From: Arthrobacter alpinus
Lineage (GTDB): Bacteria > Actinomycetota > Actinomycetes > Actinomycetales > Micrococcaceae
Assembly: GCF_001294625.1 (NCBI RefSeq)
Contig: NZ_CP012677.1
Coordinates: 1,240,001 to 1,304,000 of the forward strand
Reading direction: 5' to 3'
Length of the DNA stretch: 64,000 nucleotides
Shown: positions 34,479 to 50,425 of the stretch, piece by piece
How the letters are laid out: each line of letters starts with the position of its first letter
Numbering within the stretch: the first letter of the stretch is position 1
Program-made: the position numbers and the translations under genes
The notes under the pieces: generated by a model
The model's database searches: none
Told to the model about the DNA's origin: nothing
What the model saw: the letters and a program-made list of their open reading frames with translations, nothing else

Positions 34479-35908
34479 GGTTACGTCCCGCTGAGTGGTG
34501 GAGTTTGCCTCGACACCGTGCGGGTCAGTTCTTTGATTATGCTGCAGTGAGTTCTGGGAGCAAAATCGCCTCCTCCACGGCTTCGACTGATGCCGTGTTC
34601 ATGGCCTTGAGTTCGGCCATGGAGGCTTCGCAAGAGGTAGCGGCGGTCCCCGGCTTCCCATTCGTCATGTTGCTCGACAAGGACGGCTCCGGCGAGCCGT
34701 AGGAGCGCTGCGGGGTTGGGGAAGACTCCGACAACATCGGTGCGTCGTTTGATTTCCTTGTTCACCCGTTCCATGGGGTTCGTGGACCAGATCTGGCGCC
34801 AGTGCCTGGCCGGGAAGCCGGTGAACGCGAGGACGTCCTCCCGGGCGTCGCCGAGCATCGCTGCGACCTTCGGATGGGACTTGGCCAGCATCCGCGTGAC
34901 CTCGTCGAACTGGGTGTTCACGTGTGCAGCGTCGGGCTGGGCGAAGGCGGTGCGGATGATCGAGGCGACCATGTCCTGGGATCCCTTCGGCACGATCGAG
35001 AGCACGTTACGCATGAAATGCACCCGGCAGCGCTGCCAACCCGCACCGTGAAAAACCGTGCCGATGGCCTTCTTCAAGCCACTGTGGGCATCGGAGATAG
35101 CCAGCTTCACCCCGTCCAGCCCACGGGCCTTTAACGACCGCAGGAACGAGGTCCAGAACCCCTCGTTCTCACTGTCTCCGACATCGAAGCCCAAGACTTC
35201 CCTGCGCCCGTCAGCAGCCACACCGAAGGCGACCACGACCGCCTGGGACACGACCCGGTGCCCGACCCGTGCCTTGCAATAGGTCGCGTCCAGGAACACG
35301 TACGGGTAGTCCATGGCCGAGAGATCCCGGTCCCGGAAAGCACCGACCTCATGGTCCAAGCCCTCACAGATCCGGGACACCTCGGACTTGGAAAATCCCT
35401 GTATCAGCCCCGAGCGCCTTGACCAGATCATCGACCTTGCGCGTGAAGACACCGTGCAGGTAGGCCTCCATCACCACGGCGTAGAGTGCCTGATCCACGC
35501 GGCGCCGGCGCTCCAGCAACGCAGGGAAGAACGAGCCGTTGCGCAGCTTGGGGATCTTCAGGTTCAGGTCCCCGGCGGTGGTCGTCAACGTCCTAGGACG
35601 GGACCCGTTGCGCTGGGTCGTGCGAGCCTCGGAGCGTTGGAACGGGGCGGCACCGATGAACGCGGTCCCCTCGGCCTCGATGAGCTGCTGGTACAGCGTT
35701 TCGGTCGCAGTGCGGATACGGTCGGAGACATCGGTGAGTTTAAGTTGGCCAAGCAGGTCAAGCAAGGACGACTGGTCTAGAGCCATCGTGTGTTTGCGTC
35801 CTTTGTGAGTTCTTTGATCGGTCCTCACTGACCATCACACGATGGCTCTTCACATCAGAAATCCGATGCTCAGCAACCGGAAACTACACCACTCCACGGG
35901 ACGTAACC
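34479..35908 (-). mobile_element. IS256-family insertion sequence (decayed)
   Basis: 1430 bp bounded by imperfect inverted repeats of about 28 bp: the left end reads GGTTACGTCCCGCTGAGTGG and the right end, reverse-complemented, GGTTACGTCCCGTGGAGTGG. It contains one minus-strand transposase gene with two frameshifts. No 8-9 bp target duplication is visible: the left flank is TGCGGCAG and the right AAATGACT. This suggests that a deletion or recombination took place at one end after insertion. Confidence 0.85.
34537..35786 (-). pseudogene. IS256-family transposase, two frameshifts
   Basis: Starting at ATG 35786 (MALDQSSLLDLLGQL), the Mutator-type transposase reads normally to about codon 131 (VKALGADTGI). 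One extra A in the run at 35392-35395 then shifts the frame; it resumes as SKSEVSRICEGLD and runs through the DDE core (FLDATYCKARVG, ISDAHSGLKKAI, STNPMERVNKEIKRR). A second one-base insertion near 34632 shifts it again, and the true C-terminus continues as EASMAELKAMNTASVEAVEE to TAA at 34537. Apart from the two shifts all three catalytic regions look intact. Read as a pseudogene; IS256 elements are not known to use programmed frameshifting. Confidence 0.85.
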
Positions 35909-35929
35909 AAATGACTGGCCTGATTCTTA

Positions 35930-36010
35930 GCGCTCTTTTGGCCTGAAACGAGCCACTAACTTGGCCCACATTCCTAGCTGAAACGGCCTACAAATAGTTG
36001 ATCACACACA
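35930..36010. repeat. IS21-like terminal remnant
   Basis: Two related words lie close together (GGCCTGAAACGAGCC and AGCTGAAACGGCC), ending near TGATCACACACA. Clustered subterminal repeats like this are typical of IS21-family ends. No transposase is present. The assignment is tentative and rests on appearance only. Confidence 0.35.
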
Positions 36011-36128
36011 CCCTTCCGCTGGTGTCAGTGTCAATCTTGAAAATTCGGACGACTAGGTACACACGTGCTGATGGCCAGTGCAGGGTGAGCTTGTGTCTCG
36101 TAGTGGGGCGATGCAGGCTGTAGGTAGC

Positions 36129-36611
36129 ATGTATCTCATGACGCTCATGGATCCTCTCTTCTTGAATCTTCTGGCCGCCGCCGAGCGCGGTGAGAAATGC
36201 CCCCCGCTCGTGGTGGTGACGGGTACTTGGGTCATCCAGGGCGCCCTGGTCGGCACAACCGCATTTCTAGAAGCCTCCCAGATGCACGTCTACGACAAGC
36301 TGATTCGCCTGTGGGGCTCTGCAGAGCGCAAGAATCCCATGTCGCCCGAGGATGCCGCCCAGATTGCTGGTCAGCGACTCGCCCCGTTGGGAATCCCCGG
36401 GGGTGCAGGGTCGCCCAGTCTTAGCCTCATTGAAGTCACGCTGACCGGCGTTAAGACCCTCTCCGTGCCTGCGATGCGCGTGCCACTGGCAGCAATTGAT
36501 GCGTGGTGGGTCACCGATCATGCCCTGGAGAAGCAACAGCCCGTTGCGGAACGTGGGAGTGAAGCTCGGGGCGGCGGCGGTGTCAGCGTTGGCGTAGCAT
36601 TCGACTTCTAG
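36129..36611 (+). CDS. Island protein of unknown function
   Basis: 160 residues from ATG 36129 (MYLMTLMDPLFLNLLAAAERG), which has GTAGG in front; an earlier GTG at 36078 would add 17 residues without a ribosome site. The first half is moderately hydrophobic (PPLVVVTGTWVIQGALVGTT) and the rest mixed, ending in a Gly-rich stretch and VGVAFDF. There is no signal peptide or clear membrane helix, and I do not recognise the family. It lies in the tRNA-Leu island between the IS remnants and a toxin-antitoxin pair. Confidence 0.6.
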   Translation: MYLMTLMDPLFLNLLAAAERGEKCPPLVVVTGTWVIQGALVGTTAFLEASQMHVYDKLIRLWGSAERKNPMSPEDAAQIAGQRLAPLGIPGGAGSPSLSLIEVTLTGVKTLSVPAMRVPLAAIDAWWVTDHALEKQQPVAERGSEARGGGGVSVGVAFDF

Positions 36612-36838
36612 AACCCGGCGCTCCGAATCACCCAATCCCACCAGCCTCACATCGTTCTTTGAACTGTCCCGGAAATGATGCCGCCACCTATTTTGACGAA
36701 TGTGCGTATGTTGGCCTCTCGTTAAAGTTCGGCGCGTGGCGATGTGGTGGAGAATGTAGATCTCGACGTCTGGGTGCTCCTGTGGCGAGCGGGACCACCC
36801 GAATCGGGTCGGATCTTCTGGATTGATAGACAGAGCTA

Positions 36839-36853
36839 GTACCGGATTGGTAC
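36839..36853. promoter_or_regulatory. Operator-like inverted repeat before the toxin-antitoxin pair
   Basis: GTACC-GGATT-GGTAC is a perfect 5-5-5 inverted repeat 14 bases before the antitoxin start. CopG-type antitoxins usually bind such a site to repress their own operon. Confidence 0.5.
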
Positions 36854-36867
36854 CATGAGGTATGGCT

Positions 36868-37068
36868 ATGAATCTGCGAGTACCCGAAGAGCTGGATCGA
36901 GAGCTGGAGAAGCTTGCTCTTGAGGAACATACCTCAAAGTCCGCGCTGCTGCTTCAGGGTGCCGAGATGGTGCTACAACGTCACCGGCGTCGTCGTGAGA
37001 TCGCTGCGAGCATTGAGTTCGTCAAGAGCCATGATGCCGAGCTGTTGATCCGCCTCGCTGATGCATGA
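36868..37068 (+). CDS. Ribbon-helix-helix (CopG-like) antitoxin
   Basis: 66 residues: MNLRVPEELDRELEKLALEE is the beta strand and first helix of a ribbon-helix-helix protein, followed by a charged C-terminal helix (VLQRHRRRREIAAS) likely to wrap the toxin. ATG 36868 is chosen because GAGG at 36857-36860 gives seven-base spacing; ATG 36862 is too close. It overlaps the toxin gene by ATGA. It would neutralise the Doc-type toxin and repress the operon. Confidence 0.8.
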   Translation: MNLRVPEELDRELEKLALEEHTSKSALLLQGAEMVLQRHRRRREIAASIEFVKSHDAELLIRLADA

Positions 37069-37433
37069 CGCAGTATCTCGATATTGAGGATGCTCTCCAA
37101 GTCGTGGACGGCTATGGCTTTCATATCCGGGACATCGGCCTGCTTGCCTCCGCCCTCGCCCGTCCGGGAACCACCGTGCTGGGAACGGACGCATATCCGG
37201 ACCTTGCCTTGAAGGCAGCGGCGTTGCTGGATTCGGTGGCCAGGTTTCACCCGCTTCTGGACGGAAACAAGCGCACTGCCTGGACACTGATGGTGTCATT
37301 TCTTTGGATCAACGGATTCAAGCACAACTTCGGGACAAATGAGGCGTTTGATCTTGCCCTGGGAGTGGCCGCTGGAAATATTGGATTGGAACAATCGGCC
37401 GCGGCGATCGTGTCCCATATTGTTCCTCGCTAA
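37065..37433 (+). CDS. doc: Doc-type toxin (Fic fold)
   Basis: 122 residues with the Fic/Doc motif HPLLDGNKRTAW (His62, Asp66, Gly67, Asn68, Lys69, Arg70), in which the usual Phe after HP is Leu, plus LASALARPGTTVLGTDAYPDLALKAA (the PxxT...YPDL region seen in Doc proteins). Doc phosphorylates elongation factor Tu and so halts translation. Length matches Doc of phage P1 (126). Active-site residues are all present, so the toxin is probably functional. Lies next to attR, which may stabilise the island. Confidence 0.88.
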   Translation: MTQYLDIEDALQVVDGYGFHIRDIGLLASALARPGTTVLGTDAYPDLALKAAALLDSVARFHPLLDGNKRTAWTLMVSFLWINGFKHNFGTNEAFDLALGVAAGNIGLEQSAAAIVSHIVPR

Positions 37434-37503
37434 CCGATGGCAAGGACAGTAGGCTCTAGTCGGAGTCGGCGGGCGTACCTAGCCAGGATTCATGAAAATG
37501 GGC

Positions 37504-37522
37504 CTGTTCCCGCCGGGAACAC
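37504..37522. repeat. Inverted pair of integrase arm-site-like words
   Basis: CTGTTCCCGCCGGGAACAC contains GGGAACAC, the reverse complement of the GTGTTCCC words found next to attL at 34082 and 34103. It lies about 90 bases inside attR, as expected for arm sites of an integrating element. Confidence 0.5.
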
Positions 37523-37613
37523 TTTTCCTTCTGGACTGGTCCGGACTGCGTCGTATTGGGACGGAGATCGGCAGGATGTCGGGACTTCCCTCTGTTTGCA
37601 TGGGCTAAAAGCC

Positions 37614-37636
37614 GGTTCGAATCCCACCTCGGGCAC
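37614..37636 (+). other. attR: duplicated 3' end of tRNA-Leu
   Basis: Exact 23-base copy of 34022-34044. The upstream part of the tRNA is not present, so this is only the attachment-site duplicate marking the right end of the island. Confidence 0.85.
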
Positions 37637-37648
37637 ATATGTCGATGA

Positions 37649-37678
37649 ATGGCCCCCTGGAAACAGGGGACCATTTTT
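37649..37678 (+). terminator. Displaced original tRNA-Leu terminator
   Basis: ATGG(C)CCCCTG-GAAA-CAGGGG(A)CCAT followed by TTTTT. It stands 12 bases after attR in the same place and orientation as the terminator behind the intact tRNA, so it is likely the ancestral terminator moved away by the insertion. Confidence 0.6.
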
Positions 37679-37698
37679 CATTTGCGGCCCCGGTTCCG

Positions 37699-37719
37699 CT
37701 GATCGAGCTTGTCGAGACC
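37699..37719. repeat. Dispersed 20-bp repeat, copy 2 (TGATCGAGYTTGTCGAGAYC)
   Basis: TGATCGAGCTTGTCGAGACC differs from the copy at 33134-33153 at two pyrimidine positions. It lies shortly outside attR. Confidence 0.55.
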
Positions 37720-37959
37720 CGTCCATTCCCCTGATGGGCCTTGTTATGCAGCGTGCTGGTTCTCTGACGCTGATTTAGATGTTCGTTCCTGGCTTCTCCC
37801 TTTCTGAGTATTGCGGGTAATTCGTCCTCCGTTACCATCCATGGTCCGTAGGACCACTACGACATGACCTGGGTGTGACTTTTGGCCGGCAGCTGGAAGC
37901 TCTCCGTAGCTGCCGCTGTTTCAGTTGTCCACGGTCCTCGAAGCACCTCAGGGGGTCAA

Positions 37960-38032
37960 TGGCGAGACTTAGAATTCAAGCCCGTGGGCAATTTCATGGC
38001 CGCCCATGGGCAGTTTTTCATGGCCGCTAACA
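37960..38032. repeat. Terminal remnant of an IS21-family element
   Basis: Two direct repeats, GGGCAATTTCATGGCCGC and GGGCAGTTTTTCATGGCCGC, end at GCTAACA (38032), i.e. TGTTAGCGGCCATGAAAAAC read from the outer end on the minus strand. TG-starting ends with subterminal repeats of this kind are typical of IS21 elements. No istA/istB genes remain. Confidence 0.55.
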
Positions 38033-38291
38033 CGAGGGTGAACTCGTATTGAACGATGGCTACGGGGCGATCATGGCAGTTGTGTTTCGGCGGACATTGT
38101 CCTCTCTGTGGCTTGGAGCTCATCGGCTCGAAGCCGCATCACCAGGCCGCGGTGGGGCGCGCTATATCCGGCCAGTTCTTGCATAAGTACTATGATTCGA
38201 GGGACTTTACGCGTCGACCTGTTGCGGCCGTTCCACGCCGTTGAATTACGAGGGTGTTTCGACGTCGAACGAAACTGGAGACAAAATCGTC

Positions 38292-38918
38292 ATGAAGTTT
38301 TTCAAAGCACGGGTTCTGCTTTGGCCTCTCCTGCTGATCGCCGTGCTGGTTGTCTCGGGAATGGGCGCCGCTTTCGTATTCGGTGGACTCAACGCTCTCG
38401 CTCTCAGTTCGCTGTTCACCAGCACCTCTAACGAACGCGATTCGCAGGTGATTCAGTCCGTCACGCGCGTGCAAGAGGTCGCCCTGCTGAGCCTTCATAT
38501 CGAGGGTGTCGACAGGCACGAAAGCAATGGAGCGATTTTCGGCGTGGCCATACCCGCCAGCGAGAAAACAACGCTGATCCAGTACAAGCTCGACGCAAAA
38601 TTAGGCATCGATGGGTCACAGGTGAAGATCGAACCCACCGGCCCAGACTCATTTCGGGTGACCATCCCTGAATTTATTGGCATCGGCTTTGACGATCCTG
38701 TGTTCGAAGACCCCCTTGAGGACAACAACGCGCTTAGCTGGCTGGCGGCGCCAGCCGTTCAAACTCGCATGATCAACAACATTCTCAGCGACGAGAACAA
38801 ACAGAAGTACACCACCCAAAACGCGGCAGCGCTGAAAGAGCAGGTCGAGGTTTTCTACTCCGGAATCATCGCCTGCGTCGATCCCGAAATCACCATAGAC
38901 TTTGAGTTCGCAGGGTAG
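38292..38918 (+). CDS. Membrane-anchored protein, possibly DUF4230 family
   Basis: 208 residues from ATG 38292: an N-terminal membrane helix (VLLWPLLLIAVLVVSGMGAA), then an extracytoplasmic domain with a VIQSVTRVQEVALLSLHIEG strand region, a KLDAKLGIDGSQVKIEPTGP segment and VTIPEFIGIGF, followed by a helical C-terminus. The order resembles DUF4230 proteins (TM helix, beta-rich domain with Y-x-A-x-x-G-ID and VTIP/LPxP). The family is of unknown function. A TTG at 38241 would add 17 residues but gives a poorer signal-anchor. It stands alone, between an IS end and the SbnA-like operon. Confidence 0.55.
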   Translation: MKFFKARVLLWPLLLIAVLVVSGMGAAFVFGGLNALALSSLFTSTSNERDSQVIQSVTRVQEVALLSLHIEGVDRHESNGAIFGVAIPASEKTTLIQYKLDAKLGIDGSQVKIEPTGPDSFRVTIPEFIGIGFDDPVFEDPLEDNNALSWLAAPAVQTRMINNILSDENKQKYTTQNAAALKEQVEVFYSGIIACVDPEITIDFEFAG

Positions 38919-39072
38919 ATGCCCGCAACGCCCCGTTCTCGCCGCATGAACCCAAACTGTCAACTAAACACTGGTCAGACCCACCGTATGCCGGAGCCGA
39001 CAGCTTGAATATTACGCATCGCAGTGGTCTCACCGGCAGATGAAACGTCCCCACCATGGTTTGAAACGGCAG

Positions 39073-40479
39073 CTACAGCCTTATCCGGTCGATGTCGTCG
39101 GACTCCCAAGTTTTCCCGTTCCACAATACGTTGGCAGCAAGGGGCAACTGGTGGGATGCACTCTCAACGATGTGCATGAGATAGCCAGCGGTATTGGGGA
39201 ATGCTATGAGATCCCCAGCGGCCACTCCCGCGGGAAATTCAAAACGACGTCGCAGGAGAAGTTCTTCTTCAATACAGTAGGCACCCACCAGGAACGCGCT
39301 GCCGAATGTTCGTTCCGCGCCTGGGCCGGCGGCGTGAACGAGCAGCGGATCAAGTAAAAAGTCCGCAGAGGTGGACCTGCACTGTGTACGATTCATGTGC
39401 AAACCAACCAGCGGCACACCATCGCTGCGCTGTTTTGTGAATGCCACTTCGGCAAGCGTTAGCCCGCATCCATCCATCAGTGAACGCCCCGGTTCGCACC
39501 GTAGTTGAATATCGGCAGCCCTTAAAGCGGCGCCAATGGAAACCGATTCAGTCTCGGGCACATAACCAAGTAGTTCATTGAGCCAAACACCGCGCACGAG
39601 CTCCTGGTGATAGGGGTATACAGCGGAGCTGGGAGCGAGCCCCTTGGCGCCGAGCCTGTCGGATTTCCAGGTGAGGGACTCATCGCCGTCGGGCAGCCGG
39701 ACAAGCTGGTACCAAAAGTCCTCCCACTGGTCCGCACTGTCCACGTAAGACATGGGTATTCCGCCACCCATGTCCACGAAGTCTGGTGCGTGGCCCATGC
39801 TCCGCAGCTCTTCGATGACGCCCAGGGCCTGATGAATACCGAGGGAGCGGGCATGCGCATCATAGCCGTTGAGGTGGAAATGAAGGCCGGCCACCTTGAC
39901 GCCAGCGTTCGGGGTGACGTCGGAAAGTAGGTCCAACCAGTGGGATGCGGACAACCCAAAACGGGTGGGCGGGATGCTCCGGTGGTCGATAGACAGCCGC
40001 AAAGCCACGTTAAGGGCTTGTCCCGAAGCTTCGTTGACTTCCAATGCACTGTGTAGTTCGTCGCTGTTGTCCAGGCTGACGGTCACGCCGGCGGAGATGG
40101 CCGCGCGAAGAAGCGCCTTTGACTTCACAGCGGCGCTGAGGATGATTCGCTCTGGCGGCACTCCCCGGTCAAGGCATTGGCGCAGTTCATTCAGACTTGC
40201 TACGTCGACGCCGCACCCCTCGCGAACCGCCTGATCAATCGCTCCCATCGTCTTGTTGGCTTTGCGCGCATAGTAGATCTGCAAGTCGATCTGATGCTCA
40301 GCTGCGGCAGCGCGGAGCTCCTGGGCATTGCGTCCCATAGCGGAGTATTCGTGAATGTTGACCGGGGAACCGTGGGTGTCTATCAGCTGCCTGCAGAGTC
40401 TGGAGTTGCTGAGCAGCTCTTCCATCCACGGTTCAAGCCGGGCTGTCAGCCGCGCTGTGCCGTACATTTTTTCATTCAT
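39073..40479 (-). CDS. PLP-dependent decarboxylase, Y4yA/SbnH-like
   Basis: 468 residues of the ornithine/DAP/arginine decarboxylase family (alanine-racemase-like barrel plus beta domain). PLP-binding Lys73 is in IYYARKANKT; GLHFHLNGYD, FVDMGGGIPMSY and RCEPGRSLMDGCG are the further cofactor and substrate regions. It resembles the Rhizobium Y4yA group and the staphyloferrin B decarboxylase SbnH more than LysA. ATG 40479 has AGGAC six bases in front. Last gene of a three-gene operon; nine bases separate it from the FAD protein. A substrate derived from 2,3-diaminopropionate is plausible but inferred. Confidence 0.75.
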   Translation of the reverse strand: MNEKMYGTARLTARLEPWMEELLSNSRLCRQLIDTHGSPVNIHEYSAMGRNAQELRAAAAEHQIDLQIYYARKANKTMGAIDQAVREGCGVDVASLNELRQCLDRGVPPERIILSAAVKSKALLRAAISAGVTVSLDNSDELHSALEVNEASGQALNVALRLSIDHRSIPPTRFGLSASHWLDLLSDVTPNAGVKVAGLHFHLNGYDAHARSLGIHQALGVIEELRSMGHAPDFVDMGGGIPMSYVDSADQWEDFWYQLVRLPDGDESLTWKSDRLGAKGLAPSSAVYPYHQELVRGVWLNELLGYVPETESVSIGAALRAADIQLRCEPGRSLMDGCGLTLAEVAFTKQRSDGVPLVGLHMNRTQCRSTSADFLLDPLLVHAAGPGAERTFGSAFLVGAYCIEEELLLRRRFEFPAGVAAGDLIAFPNTAGYLMHIVESASHQLPLAANVLWNGKTWESDDIDRIRL

Positions 40480-40488
40480 CACTTTGTC

Positions 40489-42120
40489 CTAGTGGTTGAG
40501 CCGGTCGGTAATGAGACCAGCAATGCGCTGGGCCCACAGCAGGTGTTCGCCGTGCAGGGAACGATTGAGGGTGTCGTGGCCCAATGTTGGGTCCTCGGTG
40601 GGACGGCCCAGCGCTGCCAGAGATTCATTCCTGGATCCGTTCAAGGCAATGCAGGTCCCATCTGATGCTGTCAGAAGGCCACGGTCTCCGGGCCGGATGG
40701 AGATGTCCCCGCGATGCAGTAGCCCGGCGAACAGTTCACTAGTGGGAGTTCCTGCCGGTGCAGCCGCCGGCAGCACGCCAGGACCGGGCGTCACCGCGTC
40801 AACGAGGATCGCAGCCGGTGGCGGAGTCTGCTCAGTCGTGGCCAGCTGAAGGAGTCCGGCGTCAATGAGGGCCGCTAATTTACGTGCAGTGAGCTCCGGA
40901 GGGCCGAAGGTGATCTTCTCCAGGCTGTGAGCAACTCGGGCAAATTGGCGCCAGTCCCGGGCGGTTCGGGGCAAACGGTCCATCGCCGCCACCAGCTCCG
41001 CATACAGACCGGACCACACCCTGGCCCAAAGCCACCCTGTCGTGACAGGCGCCTGGAGCTGGTTCACAGCGAGGGCACGTTCTAAGAAGGCTGCGGCGTT
41101 GTGCGGCCGCTCAGGGGCCGCAGCTCCACAGCCGGCCACAGCTGAATGACCGGTCAAGGCCGTGCGCCACAGGGCCAGCGCACTAACGTCCAAGCCCATT
41201 ACACGGGCACAATCCTGGGCACAGCGCACAAGTATCAACCACAGCCCGCTCAGGCTGAGCTCAGCGGGCGCATCCGTTTCCCGTACCTCCTGGCCCCACT
41301 CGCGCAAGCTGGCTTTGTGTCCTTCCAAGCACGCAACGACCTCCCCGGGCACCATCTCGCTTTTGGGCAGCATGAGTGTGCCACTGCGGGAGGAAAAGAT
41401 GATCAGCCGCGGCTCTTCGCCACAGGAGCGATACCGCAATCGTGCGCCGTCGCCGGAGTCGTTGGTCCATTGCCAGTCGCCACCACGGCCTTCAGTCAGC
41501 AGCATTGCCACGTCGTAGGCCGTCAAGGCCGCTCCCCGAATCCAGACTTCGGACCCGGCGGGGAGGGCCTCCGGTGTCAGTGCGGCGTAATCCCCAATCA
41601 GCGGGAATCTGTTCACTGCGCCTTTCATAGGATCCGCTGCTGGGGCCTGCGCCAGTCCATGTCCGGTGGCCAAGAGAACCTCGTCGTAGGTGTTCGCCCC
41701 AAACGTCCCGCTGACCTGCCACACCGGACCCTTCCGTTCGACGCCGGTGACCACCTCAGGGACGTGGCCCACGGTGATGCTTCCGCGGCGCGACAACAGC
41801 TGAAACTGCTCCTGTAGATAACGTCCCACGAGCCGCCTTGGCGGATAACGCACTGGTCCCATTTCTGGTGCCACGCGCTGCGCCCACACAGTGAACGTCT
41901 CGGCACTCAAACACGAGGTTGCCTCTACGATGCCCGCCTGCACGTTCAGGCGAAGGGTCTCGGGCTGGTTGGTCCGCCATACACTTCCCGCTCCAGGCGG
42001 CTGGGGATCATAAACATCCACGGTCACCGGCGCCGATGGCGTGGATGACAGGCGGTCGTTGAGGGCCAGAAGTGCGAACAGGCTTTTTGGTCCTCCCCCG
42101 ACAACAGCAATGCGGATCAC
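40489..42120 (-). CDS. FAD/NAD(P)-binding protein (NAD_binding_9 type)
   Basis: 543 residues. The N-terminus IRIAVVGGGPKSLFALLALN is a dinucleotide-binding fold of the type seen in the FAD-NAD(P)-binding family PF13454 (GGGPKxL instead of GxGxxG). A second conserved part is EVLLATGHGLAQAP, and the C-terminal third is less conserved. Members occur in natural-product and siderophore-like clusters with unknown reactions. GTG start at 42120 overlaps the stop of the SbnA-like gene (GTGA). Inference: it may oxidise the SbnA product in place of SbnB. No membrane segment or signal peptide. Confidence 0.65.
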   Translation of the reverse strand: MIRIAVVGGGPKSLFALLALNDRLSSTPSAPVTVDVYDPQPPGAGSVWRTNQPETLRLNVQAGIVEATSCLSAETFTVWAQRVAPEMGPVRYPPRRLVGRYLQEQFQLLSRRGSITVGHVPEVVTGVERKGPVWQVSGTFGANTYDEVLLATGHGLAQAPAADPMKGAVNRFPLIGDYAALTPEALPAGSEVWIRGAALTAYDVAMLLTEGRGGDWQWTNDSGDGARLRYRSCGEEPRLIIFSSRSGTLMLPKSEMVPGEVVACLEGHKASLREWGQEVRETDAPAELSLSGLWLILVRCAQDCARVMGLDVSALALWRTALTGHSAVAGCGAAAPERPHNAAAFLERALAVNQLQAPVTTGWLWARVWSGLYAELVAAMDRLPRTARDWRQFARVAHSLEKITFGPPELTARKLAALIDAGLLQLATTEQTPPPAAILVDAVTPGPGVLPAAAPAGTPTSELFAGLLHRGDISIRPGDRGLLTASDGTCIALNGSRNESLAALGRPTEDPTLGHDTLNRSLHGEHLLWAQRIAGLITDRLNH

Positions 42121-43103
42121 TGATTCGCGAACTTCCCAGTATCCGCTGTACCTTCCAGTTCTTCATTCAACACTGTGCGAACCCAGTCATCGTTGTAGAC
42201 AGTTTGAAGGTAAGGAACACCGGTGTCATGAACCATGAACGCCACACGCGAAGCTGGATCAATGCCGGGCAGCAAGTTTCCCATCGCGGCAACGATGGCA
42301 CCGGTGGACGCTCCGGCGAGAATTCCTTCGCGGTGGGCCAGCCGGCGGCAACCTCGAACCATATCGATCTCTTGAATCTGGCAGACTATGTCCGGGGCAG
42401 CGGACGAGGCCAACTCCGGGAGAACCCCGGCGCCGAGGCCCGGTAGCCGGCGCGTGCCCGCGACCCCGCCGAACAGCACCGATCCCACAGAATCAACAGC
42501 CACGATTTTGGTGCCGAGGCCGTGGGTGCGAACGTATTGCTGGCATCCCAGAAGGGTGCCGGTGGTGCTGGTAGCGACGAAAAGGTAATCCAGATTGCCC
42601 CCGGTACCGGCCAATATTTCGGGCATAGTCGCCTCAAAGTGCGCACGCGGATTTGCGGGGGACCCGTACTGATTGGTGGTCACAGACCCCGGATGCATTG
42701 CCAGGAGATCATTGACCCGCTGGCGGCGGGCTGCGAGTTTGTTGCCGTCCGCCGGGGTCTGAATGCGGTTCACTGTTGCACCGTATGCCGCCATCAGCTC
42801 CAAGGCCAACGGGTTCGCATTTTCATCGACCACGGCCGTGAAGCTGATCCCGCGCACCACACATTGCCGCGCCAGGGCTATGCCTAGATTTCCCGATGTT
42901 GATTCAATGACCATGCCGCCGGCAACGAGCTGCCCCGAATCCAGAAGGGCCTCAATCAGCCCATTGGCGGTGCGTTCCTTGGTGCTACCGGACAGTTGGA
43001 GCAAGTCAAGCTTGGCATAGACTTCGATGCCACAGCCCTCAAAAAGCCGGTTAAGTTTGACCGTCGGTGTGACAAATGGTCGGAGCGTTCCCAAACTATT
43101 CAA
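42117..43103 (-). CDS. SbnA-like PLP synthase (2,3-diaminopropionate pathway)
   Basis: 328 residues of the cysteine synthase fold. PLP-binding Lys42 is in LSGSTKERTA; the phosphate/substrate loop is IESTSGNLGIALA. Features shared with SbnA rather than CysK are the VVDENANPLALELMAAYGA block, the NQYGSPANPRAHF segment, VATSTTGTLLGCQQ and the VGSVLFGG...RRLPGLGAG region. SbnA joins O-phosphoserine and glutamate to N-(2-amino-2-carboxyethyl)glutamate. Start is TTG 43103 with TGAGGAC seven bases upstream. First gene of the operon; the following genes overlap or are closely spaced. Confidence 0.75.
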   Translation of the reverse strand: MNSLGTLRPFVTPTVKLNRLFEGCGIEVYAKLDLLQLSGSTKERTANGLIEALLDSGQLVAGGMVIESTSGNLGIALARQCVVRGISFTAVVDENANPLALELMAAYGATVNRIQTPADGNKLAARRQRVNDLLAMHPGSVTTNQYGSPANPRAHFEATMPEILAGTGGNLDYLFVATSTTGTLLGCQQYVRTHGLGTKIVAVDSVGSVLFGGVAGTRRLPGLGAGVLPELASSAAPDIVCQIQEIDMVRGCRRLAHREGILAGASTGAIVAAMGNLLPGIDPASRVAFMVHDTGVPYLQTVYNDDWVRTVLNEELEGTADTGKFANQ

Positions 43104-43896
43104 CCTCAGTCCTCACATTCCATTCCTAGGGGCAACGATAGCTATTGAGGCAAGTATTGCCGGCGCCGCCGCGTCCCAGCGTCTAGCCAGTATAGGGCCA
43201 CCGATGAACAACTGCGTGAACTCTTATTCAGATCGCATCTAGCCGCCATTGACCGCCACGGCGGCGAACAAGGAGTGGCTGGAAGGCCATGGCAGCACTG
43301 GTTGGAGAATTTCCATCGGTATCGTTCACAGACAACAACGTCATCAAAAAAGCGCTGTCTGCCGCTCGGTGAAATCCGAAGGGACTCACCATGGAATTTG
43401 TACTCTCATTCGTCATTCATTGGAGAGAGCAGGCGCAACCACGATCCAATTTCCGCGGCGGAGAACCAACCAAGGAATCAACCGAGTGTGACCCGGGCAG
43501 ACACAATCTTGTCGTAGATTGCCCGCATAGCGTCCACGGCGGGTCTGATCGTCACCCTCGGGGCAAGAATCTCCACTGGATCGATGCTTGTGTACGGGCG
43601 CTTGCGTATGTAATCCTGCTTGTTGTCGTTTTTCTGGCAAGCACAGTTGCTGCTATGAATTCGTGGCGCATACCCTCACCAATCCGCCGCAAGCTCCGCA
43701 GGACCAGTTTATGCACAGCCTCAACGGTTTCCCCGGGTATGCGCGCCTTGGCCTAGTTCAAAACGAGAATGACCTAGACCGGCGCTGAATCAACCAAACA
43801 GAACATCCACAGTTCGCCGTCGTCCTGGATTTTGGGCACTGTCACCGGCCGGCTCAGGAGTCAATCCCTGGCCTGACAGGTGGGTATACAGTTCGG
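43104..43896. other. Degenerate region upstream of the SbnA-like operon
   Basis: About 800 bases with no supported gene; it should contain the promoter of the SbnA-like operon (an ATAGCTAT palindrome lies at 43138-43145, no Zur-like box seen). On the minus strand between about 43750 and 43480, coding-like stretches appear in different frames (for example IPGETVEAVHKLVLRSLRRI, then ILAPRVTIRPAVDAMRAIYD), as if an old gene had been broken by frameshifts. I cannot name it. Confidence 0.4.
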
Positions 43897-44109
43897 ATGC
43901 GCCTTGATGATTTCAGTAACGATGATGTCAGTAACTCTGTGAAGATCCGGATGTTCTGCCATGGAGAAAACTCTACTTTCCCGTGGGATTTCACGGTTGA
44001 TAACTCCGGCGGACAGGTCCTTTCACAGAGTCCGTTCACCAGTGGTTGCTGGCTGAGGCTGACGGAAACCCCTGTGTGGTGGGGCCTGTCAGGCCCCTTA
44101 CGTTCTTGA
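43897..44109 (+). CDS. Doubtful small protein with a tandem repeat
   Basis: 70 codons from ATG 43897 (MRLDDFSNDDVSNSVKIRMF). The first part holds a 15-bp tandem duplication (43906-43920 and 43921-43935, one mismatch) giving DDFSN-DDVSN. No ribosome site, no family recognised, and the frame runs over the terminator at 44081-44097 into the end of the glsB-like gene. Probably not a real gene, or a broken one. Confidence 0.2.
   Translation: MRLDDFSNDDVSNSVKIRMFCHGENSTFPWDFTVDNSGGQVLSQSPFTSGCWLRLTETPVWWGLSGPLRS
44081..44097 (-). terminator. Hairpin after the GlsB-like gene
   Basis: GGGGCCT-GTC-AGGCCCC, a perfect 7-bp stem with a three-base loop directly adjoining the stop codon of the minus-strand gene. 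Confidence 0.6.
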
Positions 44110-44367
44110 CTTGCTGCGGCCAGTGATTGCCCCGTAAATGCCGGCCACAACCAAGCCGCCGACGATGGCAAGAATCCACGAGCCGAGATTCCAGAACTCC
44201 ATCCGGCCTCCACCAAATAGCAGGTCACCGATCCATCCACCCACGATGGCTCCAACCACACCGAGGATGAGACTAGTGACCCAGCCCCCACCTACACTGC
44301 CTGGCATGATGGCCTTGACAATGGCCCCGACAACAAGGCCCAAAATGATCCATCCGATGAAACCCAT
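44098..44367 (-). CDS. GlsB/YeaQ/YmgE family stress-response membrane protein
   Basis: An 89-residue, Gly-rich protein with three membrane helices: GFIGWIILGLVVGAIVKAIM, then GGGWVTSLILGVVGAIVGGW and a third near the C-terminus (ILAIVGGLVVAGIYGA). This is the transglycosylase-associated family, induced by stress in several bacteria, with no known biochemical role. The ATG at 44367 has a strong AAGGAGG site. Single-gene unit. Confidence 0.9.
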   Translation of the reverse strand: MGFIGWIILGLVVGAIVKAIMPGSVGGGWVTSLILGVVGAIVGGWIGDLLFGGGRMEFWNLGSWILAIVGGLVVAGIYGAITGRSKSRT

Positions 44368-44925
44368 GATTCCTCCTTGGATAAGGACTGCCTGACTTCA
44401 CAACGGTGCAAATCCGTAAAAAGTCCCGGAAGTGGTGGTTCATAGTGTAATAGCCACTAGACACAGTTTAACCAAAGTTTTGCCGAAAATCTTGGAATCT
44501 GGTTAATTTGTTCTTGTTGGGCAGGGACTTGTGCAGACTCTCCCCAGCGGCATTCCCGGCGGATTGCGACCCACGGTGACTGGGCATTGGGTGTTGCTCG
44601 CCGACAAGACTGCCGTCGCGGTGCGGACGGGTATGTCGACGTTGACCGGGCTGCCCCGCCTAGGTGCTGGTCCCGACTACGTCCCAGTGGCTGCGTTGCG
44701 GGTAGCCGCGCTGCCTGATGACAGCTCCCAGACCTTGGATTTCGGTTCAAGCCTCGATGAGCATTCCCGCAGGATTACTCTTGCTCGCTGGGCTTACGTG
44801 AAGTATGCCCTCCTACTTTCAGCGGTATTGCGCCCGGCCTGCAAAACCGGGCCGCACTCCGTACCCCCATGACCGACCGCGGAAAGCAAGCACTCAAACG
44901 CAAACGGTGGGAATCGCGGAAAGAA
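44368..44925. other. Intergenic region with one doubtful open frame
   Basis: About 560 bases. The left part is AT-richer and should hold the promoter of the GlsB-like gene. A plus-strand frame 44531-44872 (GTG start, weak AGGGA site, 113 codons, MQTLPSGIPGGLRPTVTGHW) has reasonable composition, but no recognisable family, and ends 54 bases before the convergent transporter gene. I would not call it without other evidence. Confidence 0.35.
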
Positions 44926-46110
44926 CTACGCCCGGCCGTCGTCATTTGGATCCGGAGAACCAGTCACCTCCGGCGCGTCCGATGGCGACGTGTGGAGCGC
45001 GTCCCGTCCCGTCCAGACCTTGATGACTGTCCAGCCGACGGCGGTGAGCGGGACAGCGAGTAGGGCGCCGATCAGCCCTGCCAGGGCAGTCCCGGCTGCG
45101 AGGGCGAGGAGGATGGCCAGGCCGTGGATGCGCAGGACCTTGCCCATGAGCAGCGGCTGGAGGAGGTGGTGTTCGAGCTGGTTGGCGGCAACTAAAACAA
45201 TCAGCACCACCAGGGCCGGGACCGGGCCGTTGAAGATCAGAGCCACCACCACGGCCAGTGTCCCGGCAGCAGTGGCACCTATGATGGGAATGAACCCGCC
45301 GATGAACACGAACACGGCCAGTGGCAGTGCCAGCGGCACGCGCATAATGGTCAGGGCCAGGCCGATGATGAGAGCGTCAGTCAACGCCACTAGTGCGGTG
45401 CCGCGCACGTATCCGCCCAGTACGATCGCGCCGTGATCCACCGCTTCGTGAGCCTTCCTCCGTTGCCCCGCGGGGAGGAATCCGATCAGGAAATTGCGGA
45501 TCCGTTCCCCGTCCTTGAGGAAGAAGAACAAGATGACTGCCATCAAAATCACCCCCACGGCGATTTCAGCGGCAACACGGAGCCCGGTCAAGGCTTCGTT
45601 TCCAAAGGTGGTGCTGAGGATGAAATTCTGTATGGAGTTACGGATGCCGTTGATCTGCGTATCGGTGATCGGGTATGGGCCCTGAACAATGAACCCGTGC
45701 AGCCGGTCGATGCCAATGTCAGCTTGGGCGGACAGGTCCTTTAGCTGGGACCGGATCAAGAAGACAATACCTGTGATCACACCGCCAAACACGGCCAGGA
45801 TTGCCACGAATGATGTCAGCACCGCAGCGGCCCGTGGCCAACGGCGGCCGGTGAGCCAATGGACCAGCGGGCTGATCGCCGAGGCAAGGATCAATGCAAT
45901 GAGTATCGGAGTAACAACTACGGGGACCTGTGTGAGGGCCCAGATCACCGCCGCGACAAGGGTCAAGACCAACAGCACCTGGGCCGATCGGATGGACGAC
46001 TGGCCCATTGCGTCTGCCCAGATCGTGGGTAGTCCCTGGGTGAATCTCCCGCTGGGGGGCTTTGCCGGTGGCAATGGCTCTGCGGGGCTGTTGCTTTCTG
46101 TTTGCGCCAT
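44926..46110 (-). CDS. AI-2E family transporter (TqsA/YdiK type permease)
   Basis: 394 residues with eight or so hydrophobic segments in the AI-2E/PF01594 pattern: two N-terminal helices, a pair around VLTSFVAILAVFGGVITGIV, a long soluble stretch, then PLAVFVFIGGFIPIIGATAAG, LVVLIVLVAANQLEHHLLQP and a last pair. The PxIG and NQxExxxLxP motifs are family marks. Substrate is unknown; some members export autoinducer-2 or act as ion antiporters. Hydrophilic ends of about 40 residues on both sides. The ATG at 46110 lacks a clear ribosome site. Confidence 0.88.
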   Translation of the reverse strand: MAQTESNSPAEPLPPAKPPSGRFTQGLPTIWADAMGQSSIRSAQVLLVLTLVAAVIWALTQVPVVVTPILIALILASAISPLVHWLTGRRWPRAAAVLTSFVAILAVFGGVITGIVFLIRSQLKDLSAQADIGIDRLHGFIVQGPYPITDTQINGIRNSIQNFILSTTFGNEALTGLRVAAEIAVGVILMAVILFFFLKDGERIRNFLIGFLPAGQRRKAHEAVDHGAIVLGGYVRGTALVALTDALIIGLALTIMRVPLALPLAVFVFIGGFIPIIGATAAGTLAVVVALIFNGPVPALVVLIVLVAANQLEHHLLQPLLMGKVLRIHGLAILLALAAGTALAGLIGALLAVPLTAVGWTVIKVWTGRDALHTSPSDAPEVTGSPDPNDDGRA

Positions 46111-46155
46111 GAAGCCAATTCTTGCACTGTAAGGACCGGATGGCTGTTTGTTTAA

Positions 46156-46824
46156 CTACTTGGCAGGCTTTTTGGTCCCCACCGTGGTGTCCATCAGCCC
46201 TTCGAGTCCGTCTTCGTCAACCTCGGTGTTTGGTTCGACATCGATGGGGGTCCCGTCGTCAACTGCGGGCTTGTCCTTCTCTGCCGTATCGCCCTCGTCC
46301 CGCACGAAACCCGGCGCCTCTCCGTCCGCCACATTGAGCGCCAGTACTGAGCTTCGATGGCGACGGGTATCAGCCAAGTCGAACAGCCGCGCGGCAGCGC
46401 CAGCATCACCTTCTTGTTCCAGGAGGGAACCGGCCGCCATCAGCGCCTCGGCCGCGACGGCGTTCTCGCGGTAATCGAAGTATGCTCGCGCAGCCGGCTC
46501 CTCGAGGATTCCGTTGATCTGCGCGCTGACTCGGCTGGCGTCAGCTAGGGAATAGCCGTGCCCGAGCTGGTACACCTCGTGATAGAGGAAGCCATAGTTT
46601 TCTTCCCGAAAGTCCATGGACCTATCCAGGCGGGACTTCATTTCGTCCTGCTCGGCGGGTGAAAGATCGTCCACTTCGAGCCCGAGACGCTTGGCAAACT
46701 CGCGCAGGTAGGTGGCACTGGCAAGCGGCATTCCAGTCGGGGCGAGGTCAGTGTTGGCAGAGGCGGGTTGGGCATGCTCGGCAGGGGAAAAGAGGGCAAG
46801 GAATTTTTGAATCAGGGTGCTCAT
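46156..46824 (-). CDS. Soluble acidic protein of unknown function
   Basis: 222 residues. The first 30 residues are variable, then a helical region with many Glu/Asp (YLREFAKRLGLEVDDLSPAE, FREENYGFLYHEVYQLGHGY) and an Ala-rich helical hairpin ending near residue 155. The last 60 residues are acidic and look disordered. No signal peptide or metal motif stands out and I do not recognise the family. AGAGGA six bases before the ATG at 46824 supports the start. It lies between the ABC importer and the transporter gene, 15 bases after the ATPase gene, so it may be co-transcribed with the ABC operon. Confidence 0.65.
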   Translation of the reverse strand: MSTLIQKFLALFSPAEHAQPASANTDLAPTGMPLASATYLREFAKRLGLEVDDLSPAEQDEMKSRLDRSMDFREENYGFLYHEVYQLGHGYSLADASRVSAQINGILEEPAARAYFDYRENAVAAEALMAAGSLLEQEGDAGAAARLFDLADTRRHRSSVLALNVADGEAPGFVRDEGDTAEKDKPAVDDGTPIDVEPNTEVDEDGLEGLMDTTVGTKKPAK

Positions 46825-46839
46825 GGGGTCCTCTATTGG

Positions 46840-48561
46840 TTAGTGCGGCCCTTCAATCTTCCCAGCTTCCGAAGAACCTTCCAGCATGGATTCCCGTGAT
46901 ACTCGCCGCACCGGCAGGTTCAACGGCGCAGCCGACAACAAGGCACGTGTGTACTCGTGCGCAGGATCGGTGAACACCTGCTCGGTGGACCCGGACTCAA
47001 CAACTTCCCCCGCGCGCATTACCAGCACCTGATCACTCATGTGCCTGATCACCGAAAGGTCGTGGGAGATGAACAGGTAACTGAGCCCAAACCGCTGCTG
47101 CAACTCGTCCAGTAGGTCAAGGACCTGGGCCTGGATGGAGACGTCCAGGGCCGAGACCGGTTCATCGCAGATCAGCACTCGTGGCTTCGGTGCAAGGGCG
47201 CGGGCAATGGCTAGACGCTGGCGTTGCCCGCCCGAAAGCGTGGCGGGATTGCGTGCCGCCATGCCGGGCTCCAAACCGACCAGCTGCAGCAATTCGTTGA
47301 TTTCGCCAGTGCGGGCGCGGGGGTTGCGCGTGCCACCAAGACTCAACGCGTCGGCCAACAGGGCTCCAGTGGAAAGCCGAGGGTCGAAGGAGGACAACGG
47401 GTCCTGGTAGATGGCGCCCAGCGACGAACGGTGGGTTCGGCGAACGGATTCGGGAACCGAACTCCACGGCTGACCGAAGAGCTCCACGGTGCCCGCGCTC
47501 GGGGCCAGCAGCCCCAGGGCCATGCGTGCGGTGGTCGTCTTCCCCGATCCGGATTCGCCCACCAATCCAAGGGTGCGGCCGGGCAACAGCTCGAAGTCGA
47601 CATGGCGCACGGCCGTGAACCCGGTGGACTTGCCCAGCAGGAAGGTCTTGGAGAGGCCACGCGCGCTGAGCAGGGGCTGTACGACGGCGGCCGGCTGACC
47701 GTTGGGTGCCACGGGGCCGGCGGTCCGGCTGGAAACGGAATCTCCGGATTCAGTGGCGGGGGAGAGGCGTGTGAAGCGGGGCTTGCCGGCAGGAACCGCG
47801 GCCAGCAGCGCACGGGTGTACGGGTGTTGCGGGTCGTTCAGGATCTGCACAGCCGCGCCGCGCTCCACGATGCGCCCGGCCTGCATGACGGCAATCGAAT
47901 CGGCCACCGCTGCTACGGCTGCAAGGTCGTGGCTAATCAACAGCATTCCGGAGCCGCCCTGGCGCAAGTTACCGAGGAGGTCCATCACGGATGCGGCGAT
48001 CGTGGCATCCAGCGCAGTGGTGGGCTCATCGGCTATGATCAGTGCCGGTTCCAAGGCAATAGCCGAGGCAATCAGCGCCCGCTGGCGCATTCCGCCGGAG
48101 AGTTCCCCTGAACGTTGGGAGGCCCTGCGGATCGGGTCATCCAGGCCCACCGCAACAAGCAGTTCAATCACGCGAGCGGCGCGTTGCGCTCCGGAACCGG
48201 TTGAGTGCAGGCGCAGTGCGTCGTCAATTTCCTTGCCGACGGTGCGCAGTGGATCCAGGGATGTCAGGGCATCCTGCAGGATGAACCCCACCTGACGGCC
48301 GCGGAGGGCACTCCAGCGGCGCTGTGAAAGGGTCCTGGCATCCACGCCCGCCACCTCAAGTATGTCGGCGTGCACCTGCGAACCGGGCCCGGCCAAGCCG
48401 ATCAGGGACCTGGCGGTCACCGATTTGCCCGACCCCGATTCGCCCACCAGCGCCAGGCATTCCCCGGGGCTCACCGTGAAGGAAATGTCGCGGACTACGC
48501 TATTCCCGCCAAAGGTGACCGCCAAATTCTCAACCCGTAAGAGCGGCTCGGCAGCGCTCAT
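46840..48561 (-). CDS. Peptide-type ABC transporter, fused ATP-binding protein (DppD-DppF like)
   Basis: 573 residues comprising two complete nucleotide-binding domains. Domain 1: Walker A GESGSGKS, signature LSGGMRQRA, Walker B LIIADEPTTALD. Domain 2 (from about residue 290): GESGSGKTT, LSGGQRQRLAIARAL, VLICDEPVSALD, and the peptide-importer C-terminal region (HEYTRALL). Both halves look active. ATG 48561 lies in the end of the permease gene (ATGA); longer readings are not supported. It powers the importer whose other parts are encoded just upstream. Confidence 0.93.
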   Translation of the reverse strand: MSAAEPLLRVENLAVTFGGNSVVRDISFTVSPGECLALVGESGSGKSVTARSLIGLAGPGSQVHADILEVAGVDARTLSQRRWSALRGRQVGFILQDALTSLDPLRTVGKEIDDALRLHSTGSGAQRAARVIELLVAVGLDDPIRRASQRSGELSGGMRQRALIASAIALEPALIIADEPTTALDATIAASVMDLLGNLRQGGSGMLLISHDLAAVAAVADSIAVMQAGRIVERGAAVQILNDPQHPYTRALLAAVPAGKPRFTRLSPATESGDSVSSRTAGPVAPNGQPAAVVQPLLSARGLSKTFLLGKSTGFTAVRHVDFELLPGRTLGLVGESGSGKTTTARMALGLLAPSAGTVELFGQPWSSVPESVRRTHRSSLGAIYQDPLSSFDPRLSTGALLADALSLGGTRNPRARTGEINELLQLVGLEPGMAARNPATLSGGQRQRLAIARALAPKPRVLICDEPVSALDVSIQAQVLDLLDELQQRFGLSYLFISHDLSVIRHMSDQVLVMRAGEVVESGSTEQVFTDPAHEYTRALLSAAPLNLPVRRVSRESMLEGSSEAGKIEGPH

Positions 48562-49451
48562 CGGACACCCCTGGACTTCAGGATCCGGGAGAGTACCGTG
48601 GAGGCCGCGGCAACCAGCACAATGGCCAGGCCCGGGAAGAACGTCATCCACCAGGCCAGGGCGAGGTAGGTGCGTCCGGCCGACAGCATGGTGCCCCATT
48701 CGGGGGCAGGTGGGCGCGCTCCGAGCCCCAGAAAACTCAGCGACGCGGCCCAGAGGATGGCCTGTCCCAGCCCCAATGTTGCCAGTACGGCAATGGGGGC
48801 CAGGGCGTTGGGAAGGATGTGGACGGTGAGGATCCGGGCCCTACTGCGCCCGAGAACTGTGGCGGCCTCCACCATGGGGGAGGCTCGCAGGGCAATGATC
48901 TGGGCACGGATCATCCGCGCGTATCCGGGGGCCGTGGTCAGGCCCACCGCCATAACGGTGGTTGCCACACCTGGCCCTGCGAAGGCGATGAACACCAGAG
49001 CCAGCAGCAGCCCGGGCAGGGCAAAGAGCACCTCCAGGAGGCGGCCAACACCAAAATCCAGCCATCGGCCGCCAAAGCCGGCGATGGTGCCCAGCACTAG
49101 GGCCAGGCCGAGCCCGATGGCGGTGGCCGCGGCCCCGATGAGCAGTGAGGGCCGTGCGCCGTGGATGATGCGCGAATAGATGTCCCGCCCAGATTCGTCG
49201 GTGCCCAGCAGGTGCTCGGCACCGGGCGCGGAGAAGGCCTGGGTGGGGCTGATGGCCAGCGGGTCAACCGGTGACAGCAGGTTCGGTGCGATGGCTGCGA
49301 GGACAAAGAAGAGCAGCACGGCAGCAACAGCCACCAGGGGCAGGTGGGCCGCGAGCCGGCGCACAAGGGCGACCTCACGCCGTCGTACATGGTTCTTCTG
49401 TGGGCTCAACGAAGGCTCTGGCGTCGCCTTGCCCGGCCCGAAGACGCTCAT
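48558..49451 (-). CDS. Peptide-type ABC transporter permease (DppC-like)
   Basis: 297 residues with six membrane helices. It has the N-terminal OppC-type region (LLSPVDPLAISPTQ and HLLGTDESGRDIYSRIIHGA), which is diagnostic for DppC/OppC/NikC proteins, and an EAA-type loop (EAATVLGRSRARILTVHILP). ATG 49451 overlaps the stop of the other permease gene (ATGA). Confidence 0.93.
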   Translation of the reverse strand: MSVFGPGKATPEPSLSPQKNHVRRREVALVRRLAAHLPLVAVAAVLLFFVLAAIAPNLLSPVDPLAISPTQAFSAPGAEHLLGTDESGRDIYSRIIHGARPSLLIGAAATAIGLGLALVLGTIAGFGGRWLDFGVGRLLEVLFALPGLLLALVFIAFAGPGVATTVMAVGLTTAPGYARMIRAQIIALRASPMVEAATVLGRSRARILTVHILPNALAPIAVLATLGLGQAILWAASLSFLGLGARPPAPEWGTMLSAGRTYLALAWWMTFFPGLAIVLVAAASTVLSRILKSRGVR

Positions 49452-50425
49452 GAGGTACCTATCCGTGGATCGGCGAGGCGTTCGGCAAGGTCGGACAACG
49501 CCATGATCACCACGTATGCGGCTGCCGAGATCAGTGCCACACCGGTGACCATGGGGATGTCCCTGGACGTGACCGCCGAGAGCAAGGAGCGTCCCAGGCC
49601 AGGCCGGGCAAAGATGGATTCGACCACCACGGCGCCGGAGAGCAGCGAACCGAAAGCCCATCCGGAGAGAGCGATGGCCGGAAGCGCGGCATGTCGCAGA
49701 GAATGGCGCAGCAGCACACCGATCTCAGATTCCCCGCGCGCCCGGGCGGACAGGGCAAAGGCGGAACGCTGGGCTTCCATCAAGGTGTCCCGCATGACCT
49801 GGCCTAAAAAGCCTGCCAGCGGCAGCGCCAAGGTGATGACCGGCAGCGCTAGGCCGGCTGCGGTGTTGGTGCTCACCGGGGGAAGCCATCCCAGCATGGT
49901 GGAGAAGACCAGGATCAGCACGCTGGCCAGCCAGAAGTGCGGCACCGCCGCAGAAACAATCTCCAGTCCCGAGCCCAATGCAGAACCTAACGCACCGCTG
50001 CGTGTGGACAGCACAGCGACGACCAGCGCCATGGCCCAGGCCACCAGCAGTGCCAGTATGGCGAGGATGAGGGTCGGGGGAATCAGCTCGCCTAGCACCT
50101 CGGACACGGGGGTTTTCAGCGAGTAGGAGGTGCCCAGGTCGCCGGTTGCCAGCCGCCACAGCTGGCCAAAGTACTGGACGTACAGTGGCTGGTCCAGGCC
50201 GTACTGGGAGCGGGCGCCCGCAAGGGCCTCGGCCGAGGCTTGGGAACCGGGGCCGCCCATAATGGCCTCTGCCGGATCCCCGGGAATCATCCGGATGCCG
50301 AAGAAGATGGCGGTTGCAACTGCCCAGAGCACAAAAATGCCCCCGCCGATTTTGCCCAGCAGCCAGCGGACGGGCGACTCGGAAAATCCGGGTGCTCGGG
50401 TGGAAGCGGCTGCGGGTGTGCTCAT
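49448..50425 (-). CDS. Peptide-type ABC transporter permease (DppB-like)
   Basis: 325 residues, six membrane helices, with the DppB-type first segment (GIRMIPGDPAEAIMGG, then QYGLDQPLYVQYFGQL) and the coupling loop around RARGESEIGVLLRHSLRHAA. Partner of the DppC-like permease. It begins 25 bases after the binding-protein gene. Confidence 0.93.
   Translation of the reverse strand: MSTPAAASTRAPGFSESPVRWLLGKIGGGIFVLWAVATAIFFGIRMIPGDPAEAIMGGPGSQASAEALAGARSQYGLDQPLYVQYFGQLWRLATGDLGTSYSLKTPVSEVLGELIPPTLILAILALLVAWAMALVVAVLSTRSGALGSALGSGLEIVSAAVPHFWLASVLILVFSTMLGWLPPVSTNTAAGLALPVITLALPLAGFLGQVMRDTLMEAQRSAFALSARARGESEIGVLLRHSLRHAALPAIALSGWAFGSLLSGAVVVESIFARPGLGRSLLSAVTSRDIPMVTGVALISAAAYVVIMALSDLAERLADPRIGTS

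Follow-up and report, generated by a model that had tools for sequence, protein, structure and literature searches.

The window, by which we mean the whole stretch of 64,000 nucleotides analysed here, belongs to a host genome of one contig (4.05 Mb) and carries three consecutive genes on the minus strand (Table 1). A protein recorded under Arthrobacter alpinus is 98% identical to the product of gene 3. Their open reading frames and spacing agree with those given in an earlier note on this DNA, the nine-base gap being counted to the ATG of gene 3; only 6 bases separate genes 2 and 3 if the latter starts at its GTG. Gene 1 has an alternative start, a second in-frame TTG at 43094 with a better spacing from a GAGG, and its overlap with gene 2 makes translational coupling possible. 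The mobile-element traces that the same note had seen around the operon could be located as a Mutator-family transposase split over two frames. PADLOC returned no defence model for the three operon proteins.

Table 1. Position of the operon genes, of their junctions and of neighbouring features in the window.
Feature	Position	Strand	Remarks
Gene 1, SbnA: predicted PLP-dependent O-phosphoserine beta-substituting synthase	42117-43103	-	328 aa, TTG start at 43103
Gene 2, FAD/NAD(P)-binding protein of aspartate N-hydroxylase (FzmM/CreE) type	40489-42120	-	543 aa, GTG start
Gene 3, Y4yA-family PLP decarboxylase, fold type III	39073-40482	-	469 aa from GTG 40482, 468 aa from ATG 40479
GTGA stop/start overlap of genes 1 and 2	42117-42120	-	four bases, from the sequence
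Nine-base gap, gene 2 stop to gene 3 ATG	40480-40488	-	from the sequence
Gene 3 residues 363-370, MNRTQCRS codons	39373-39396	-	opposite the diaminopimelate decarboxylase MND-IRP segment in the alignment with 3vab
Mutator-family transposase, two frames	34481-35828	-	PF00872 profile positions 18-129 and 130-378
Fic/Doc-type protein	37065-37433	+	PF02661; TIGR01550 slightly below cut-off
225-aa ORF downstream of the operon, opposite strand	38241-38918	+	sub-threshold DUF4230 match only

The product of gene 1 scored 331.3 bits against the SbnA model TIGR03945, whose curated cut-off is 349.95, and the next family, cysKM, followed 146 bits lower at 185 bits; because the cut-off is narrowly missed, we assigned the protein from a tree and from its residues. 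Its closest solved relative is Staphylococcus aureus SbnA (5d84, E 7e-56), and R126, Y146 and S179 correspond to Arg132, Tyr152 and Ser185 of that enzyme, the O-phosphoserine-selecting residues according to PMC12414870. This triad is complete in 34/34 SbnA members of the three-gene cassette, in none of the seven paralogues of the host genome and, among the matches listed, in none of the 14 SbnA-like sequences taken from the remaining Y4yA loci. A tree of 56 sequences, taken without VioB, ZmaU and CmnB, unites the 34 cassette members (100/95) and gives them S. aureus SbnA as their sister (100/92), although the 5d84 row was marked for its length and deviating composition and the deeper joins are unsure where several long branches come together. 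Outside this cassette/SbnA group lie the host's seven PALP paralogues and the SbnA-like sequences from the remaining Y4yA loci. From tree and residues together we rejected a CysK or CBS identity; they bear out the earlier view of the protein as SbnA-like and not a CysK/cystathionine synthase, and identify gene 1 as an SbnA-type synthase by predicted activity.

Gene 2 belongs to the PF13454 FAD/NAD(P) family. Its closest solved relative is FzmM, and comparison of the folds (VIA-align) showed that the whole chain, including a helical substrate domain, matches the aspartate N-hydroxylases FzmM and CreE. The flavin-site Asn62 of these enzymes corresponds to N59, which is kept in all 31 distinct gene-2 rows compared, and Trp51 to W48, where the same rows have W (19), Y (11) or F (1). 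In the aspartate N-hydroxylases the entry chamber for aspartate is formed by Asn413, Arg416 and their neighbours, and the N413E exchange abolishes hydroxylation. The cassette protein, unlike FzmM/CreE, from which it differs at an identity of about 24%, has A374, V377, Y373 and S370 aligned with this chamber: Asn413, Arg416 and Arg412 are kept in 0/31 rows, Arg409 in 10 and Arg276 in 4, Arg577 lying outside the aligned stretch. We therefore did not accept gene 2 as a true aspartate N-hydroxylase. The earlier note had proposed that the FAD protein takes the place of SbnB; the position in the gene order stands, since related loci have SbnB-like or opine dehydrogenases there, and the main correction concerns its nature, as the N-hydroxylating monooxygenase fold and the flavin-site Asn suggest that gene 2 is probably more than a mere dehydrogenase.

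Gene 3 encodes a protein of the Orn/DAP/Arg decarboxylase fold with PF02784 and lysA-type matches, and its orthologues are named Y4yA in some NCBI records and alanine racemase or diaminopimelate decarboxylase in others. Of its former description as Y4yA/SbnH-like, the Y4yA part holds, whereas the likeness to SbnH (6knh, 61 bits in a profile comparison) is at the level of the fold and is exceeded by that to diaminopimelate decarboxylase (3vab, 95 bits), for which reason SbnH orthology was not accepted; FigC (7kh2) scored 58 bits. K74 and C403, which we take to be the PLP lysine and the catalytic cysteine, are invariant in 29/29 aligned rows. A cassette-specific motif, MNRTQxRS, sets the protein apart, with NRTQ present in 34/34 rows from FAD-type loci and, among the matches listed, in 0/14 other Y4yA proteins. 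As judged from the alignment, R369 within this motif may be the counterpart of the diaminopimelate decarboxylase arginine, and an acidic adduct would suit the enzyme better than free Dap. In the Y4yA tree, taken without one locus whose decarboxylase reads in two frames (L088), 33 FAD-type decarboxylases form one group (100/99).

The same set of 197 Micrococcaceae genomes was searched separately with the proteins of genes 1, 2 and 3. Matches to gene 2 occurred in 125 genomes at E 1e-10, 29 of them at 108 bits or above, to gene 3 in 31 genomes at E 1e-40 and to gene 1 in 30 genomes at E 1e-60. Genes 1 and 3 were adjacent and in the same order in 29/29 loci with a gene-2 match of at least 108 bits; one genome (G059) has all three genes, its gene 2 being divergent (67.5 bits), another (G087) has gene 3 alone at a contig edge, and 166 have none of the three at the thresholds used. 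Gene-2 matches below 108 bits mostly cover the first half of the protein only; their surroundings were opened in G059, which has the partner genes, and in G124 (L043), which has neither gene 1 nor gene 3 beside the match, and the others were covered by searching with the proteins of genes 1 and 3. The host genome itself has a second PF13454-like match of this kind (G000:C1:4028496-4029365, in a 654-aa frame), limited to the first half of gene 2.

More widely, a sample of 396 Actinomycetota genomes gave gene-2-like matches at E 1e-40 in 9 genomes, the host included; three genomes of another class hold the whole trio (in one of them, G303, the reading frame of gene 3 is split in two). The remaining five, of which four belong to a single genus, lack genes 1 and 3 in the stretches fetched. 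Plasmids carry the trio as well: one of Tsukamurella and, among those opened, three of Sulfitobacter. A scan of genome contigs with one protein alone yielded just 2 loci. Genes 1 and 2 lie less than 30 bases apart in 35/35 cassettes and overlap by 4 bases in 22/35, as counted by a script that takes the start codon closest to the preceding stop. Genes 2 and 3 form a single 903-aa frame in G059 and share a 1219-aa frame in G120, where an internal start of gene 3 is possible.

When positions 35001-50000 of the window were compared with six loci of Arthrobacter relatives (two of them on one contig), DNA similarity was confined to 39073-43122. The flanking genes differ from genus to genus, and no fourth gene common across genera was found beside the cassette. 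A Pfam check of 20 flanking proteins from 11 loci gave mixed types and one protein without a match: MFS transporters (L089, L060), a purine-type permease (L053), a ferritin (L045) and elsewhere housekeeping or regulatory types. Given this co-inheritance, the restriction of DNA similarity to the operon and the changing flanks, the trio looks like a portable, self-contained operon. That relatives of the three genes stay together, as the earlier note had expected, thus holds across the Micrococcaceae loci. Our literature searches found no description of a SbnA/FAD/Y4yA trio.

Two Arthrobacter relatives that have a trio of their own also contain a solitary extra SbnA copy (G128:C2:46605-47558, L102, on a 112-kb contig; G170:C11:248840-249547, L103), 83% identical to the SbnA of the window, with an internal TAG and with neither gene 2 nor gene 3 adjoining. 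The cassette at L089 (G530, 66-3610) is directly preceded, on its own strand, by genes for another PALP-fold PLP enzyme and for an MFS_3 transporter.

To place the cassette among related systems, we compared 48 loci that combine an SbnA-like protein with Y4yA. The third place is taken by the FAD protein in 34 and, among the matches listed for the 14 others, an ornithine-cyclodeaminase (SbnB-like) protein in 6, an octopine/nopaline dehydrogenase family protein in 5 and none of these in 3. No locus of the 48 holds two alternative third enzymes within 6 kb at scores above 60 bits. The proportions 34/6/5/3 should not be read as frequencies, because selection went through gene 2 (all FAD-type loci except L098) or through gene 3 on plasmids (the 14 others, from a search with 206 matching records; the listing comprised 60 of these, and 15, L098 among them, were opened). 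The comparison leaves out L068 and L010, both on one contig of G170, and near-copies among the 34 FAD-type loci are the three Sulfitobacter plasmids and the pair G126 and G074.

The ornithine-cyclodeaminase clusters, on plasmids of Agrobacterium, Aureimonas, Rhizobium, Rhodococcus and Mycobacterium, have the same layout of synthase, redox enzyme and Y4yA, and we take them to be EDDS/EDHA-like. They differ from the cassette in their SbnB-like dehydrogenase, a CysK-like Gly at position 185, a Y4yA group without NRTQ and, among the matches listed, a MATE exporter in 5/6 and annotated iron ABC importers in 3/6 loci. The rhizobial y4yB-y4yA-y4xP-y4xO-y4xN-y4xM cluster likewise sets Y4yA and an SbnA-like protein beside a redox enzyme, but this is of the octopine/nopaline dehydrogenase family and is joined by a NIS synthetase and an MFS exporter in 5/5 loci among the matches listed; a 2014 review calls the role of the cluster enigmatic (PMC3973906). 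With the staphyloferrin B set SbnA/SbnB/SbnH of S. aureus, the cassette shares an SbnA with all three l-OPS-selecting residues, followed in order by an oxidoreductase and a fold-III PLP decarboxylase. It departs from that set in having an FAD N-hydroxylase-type protein in place of the NAD-dependent SbnB, a decarboxylase that resembles diaminopimelate decarboxylase more than SbnH, and a host genome without NIS synthetase.

On these grounds we propose, with a probability of about 0.55, that the operon encodes a complete, portable three-enzyme pathway in which the SbnA adduct is N-oxygenated and whose product is ethylenediamine or an N-hydroxylated relative. SbnA would start from O-phosphoserine and form an adduct with a secondary amine, which would be ACEGA if the second substrate is L-glutamate. 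The chemistry of SbnA, the N-hydroxylase fold of gene 2 and a position otherwise held by dehydrogenases point to N-oxygenation of this secondary amine by the FAD/NADPH/O2 enzyme, after which the PLP decarboxylase would take off the carboxyl of the diaminopropionate half; this last step may be tightly coupled to the second and could even come first. We give about equal weight to two fates of the N-hydroxy adduct. It may lose water and hydrolyse to Dap and alpha-ketoglutarate, with ethylenediamine as the end product, so that gene 2 would act as an oxygenative stand-in for SbnB (oxygen-dependent N-dealkylation), or the N-O bond may be kept, giving an N-hydroxylated ethylenediamine derivative. A more specific form of the proposal, a stand-alone cassette in which a flavin N-oxygenase acting on the SbnA adduct and a dedicated decarboxylase yield an N-hydroxylated ethylenediamine or N-(2-aminoethyl)glutamate compound, is put forward tentatively, as possible but short of probable. 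In the literature searched, no description of such a compound or of its route was found.

The N-oxygenation pathway has to be weighed against simpler uses of the same genes. Gene 2 could be a plain SbnB substitute that dehydrogenates ACEGA to the imine with no oxygen insertion, releasing Dap and alpha-ketoglutarate, with gene 3 converting Dap to ethylenediamine; its place in the gene order would fit, but with its monooxygenase fold and flavin-site Asn we consider this unlikely. Reading gene 2 as a typical aspartate N-hydroxylase that gives nitrosuccinate or nitrite, whose nitrogen genes 1 and 3 would use, agrees with FzmM being its closest solved relative and with the CreE homologues in the cluster for alanosine, a Dap-derived product (PMC11705231). 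The loss of Arg412, Asn413 and Arg416 makes this very improbable, as does the lack of a fourth gene common to the genera, which means that no CreD-type lyase accompanies the cassette. Unlike FzmM/CreE of the ANS pathway, gene 2 travels with SbnA and Y4yA. Ordinary sulfur and lysine metabolism, with a spare cysteine synthase, a spare diaminopimelate decarboxylase and an unrelated flavoprotein, can call on family-level similarity and on S. fredii y4xP, which is said to encode a cysteine synthase (PMC3973906) but whose product bears only a distant likeness to that of gene 1. It is scarcely credible beside the all-or-none co-inheritance, the SbnA residues and tree, the joint frame of genes 2 and 3 in G059 and the gene 3-specific motif.

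A metal chelator had been one of the products suggested in the earlier note, next to ethylenediamine, and an aminopolycarboxylate metallophore of the EDDS/EDHA kind, for zinc or iron, built by an SbnA-like protein together with a decarboxylase and a redox enzyme, would have a precedent in the EDHA cluster, described as the four-gene aes cluster in PMC10702961. The SbnB-like loci, with their exporters and importers, also share both partners of the redox enzyme. We nevertheless found this reading improbable. The MATE, MFS, opine-dehydrogenase, SbnB-like and NIS proteins of the related clusters have no homologue in 37 FAD-type loci (36 distinct, the G170 contig being counted twice), the MFS genes beside L089 and L060 being unrelated, and the FAD-type SbnA and Y4yA proteins form groups of their own. 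A crude scan of 33 upstream regions against IdeR and Zur consensuses, which carries little weight, found no IdeR/Zur-like box better than 7 mismatches of 19. The lack of a shared transporter or visible metal box makes a secreted metallophore less likely. The lack of an adjacent NIS synthetase, remarked on before, extends to the whole host genome (IucA/IucC, PF04183; 2/14 named control genomes positive). The best SbnB match there reached 70.5 bits against a TIGR03944 cut-off of 326.9 (control matches in 8/14 genomes, none over the cut-off), and a search for octopine dehydrogenase gave no match, but as the control genomes gave none either (0/14), this negative is uninformative.

Should the N-oxygenation pathway be correct, the cassette would represent a third, probably oxygen-using solution for a pathway step that elsewhere falls to SbnB-like or opine dehydrogenases, with chemistry that is testable with three proteins. 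SbnA with R/Y/S, an FzmM-like protein and Y4yA with NRTQ make up a compact marker set for genome mining, and, should the N-O bond survive, the pathway predicts small N-hydroxylated diamines, a class of which the literature searched shows no example, across Actinomycetota and marine Sulfitobacter plasmids.

The related loci offered some further observations. A small ParB N-terminal-domain protein accompanies the module in 5/5 opine-dehydrogenase-type and 4/6 SbnB-like-type loci among the matches listed (L081, L083, L084, L085, L092, L093, L096, L097 and L099) and in 0 FAD-type loci. On plasmid 8 of Rhodococcus opacus PD630 (L094, 4858-10885), genes for an asparagine oxygenase, ornithine cyclodeaminase, Y4yA, cysteine synthase and a MATE-type protein are consecutive, a row that we take to resemble the EDHA (ethylenediaminesuccinic acid hydroxyarginine) cluster. 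On the pTi of Agrobacterium tumefaciens cl001 (L097, 245-9378), the ornithine-cyclodeaminase/Y4yA/SbnA-like trio adjoins phosphoenolpyruvate mutase and CDP-alcohol phosphatidyltransferase genes, which suggests a phosphonate-linked use. Finally, a Streptomyces sp. NBC_01237 plasmid (L091, 6947-11005) and L086 carry a further variant of the module, in which Y4yA stands beside a longer SbnA-like protein and, as judged by eye, a cysteine-desulfurase-like aminotransferase is also present.
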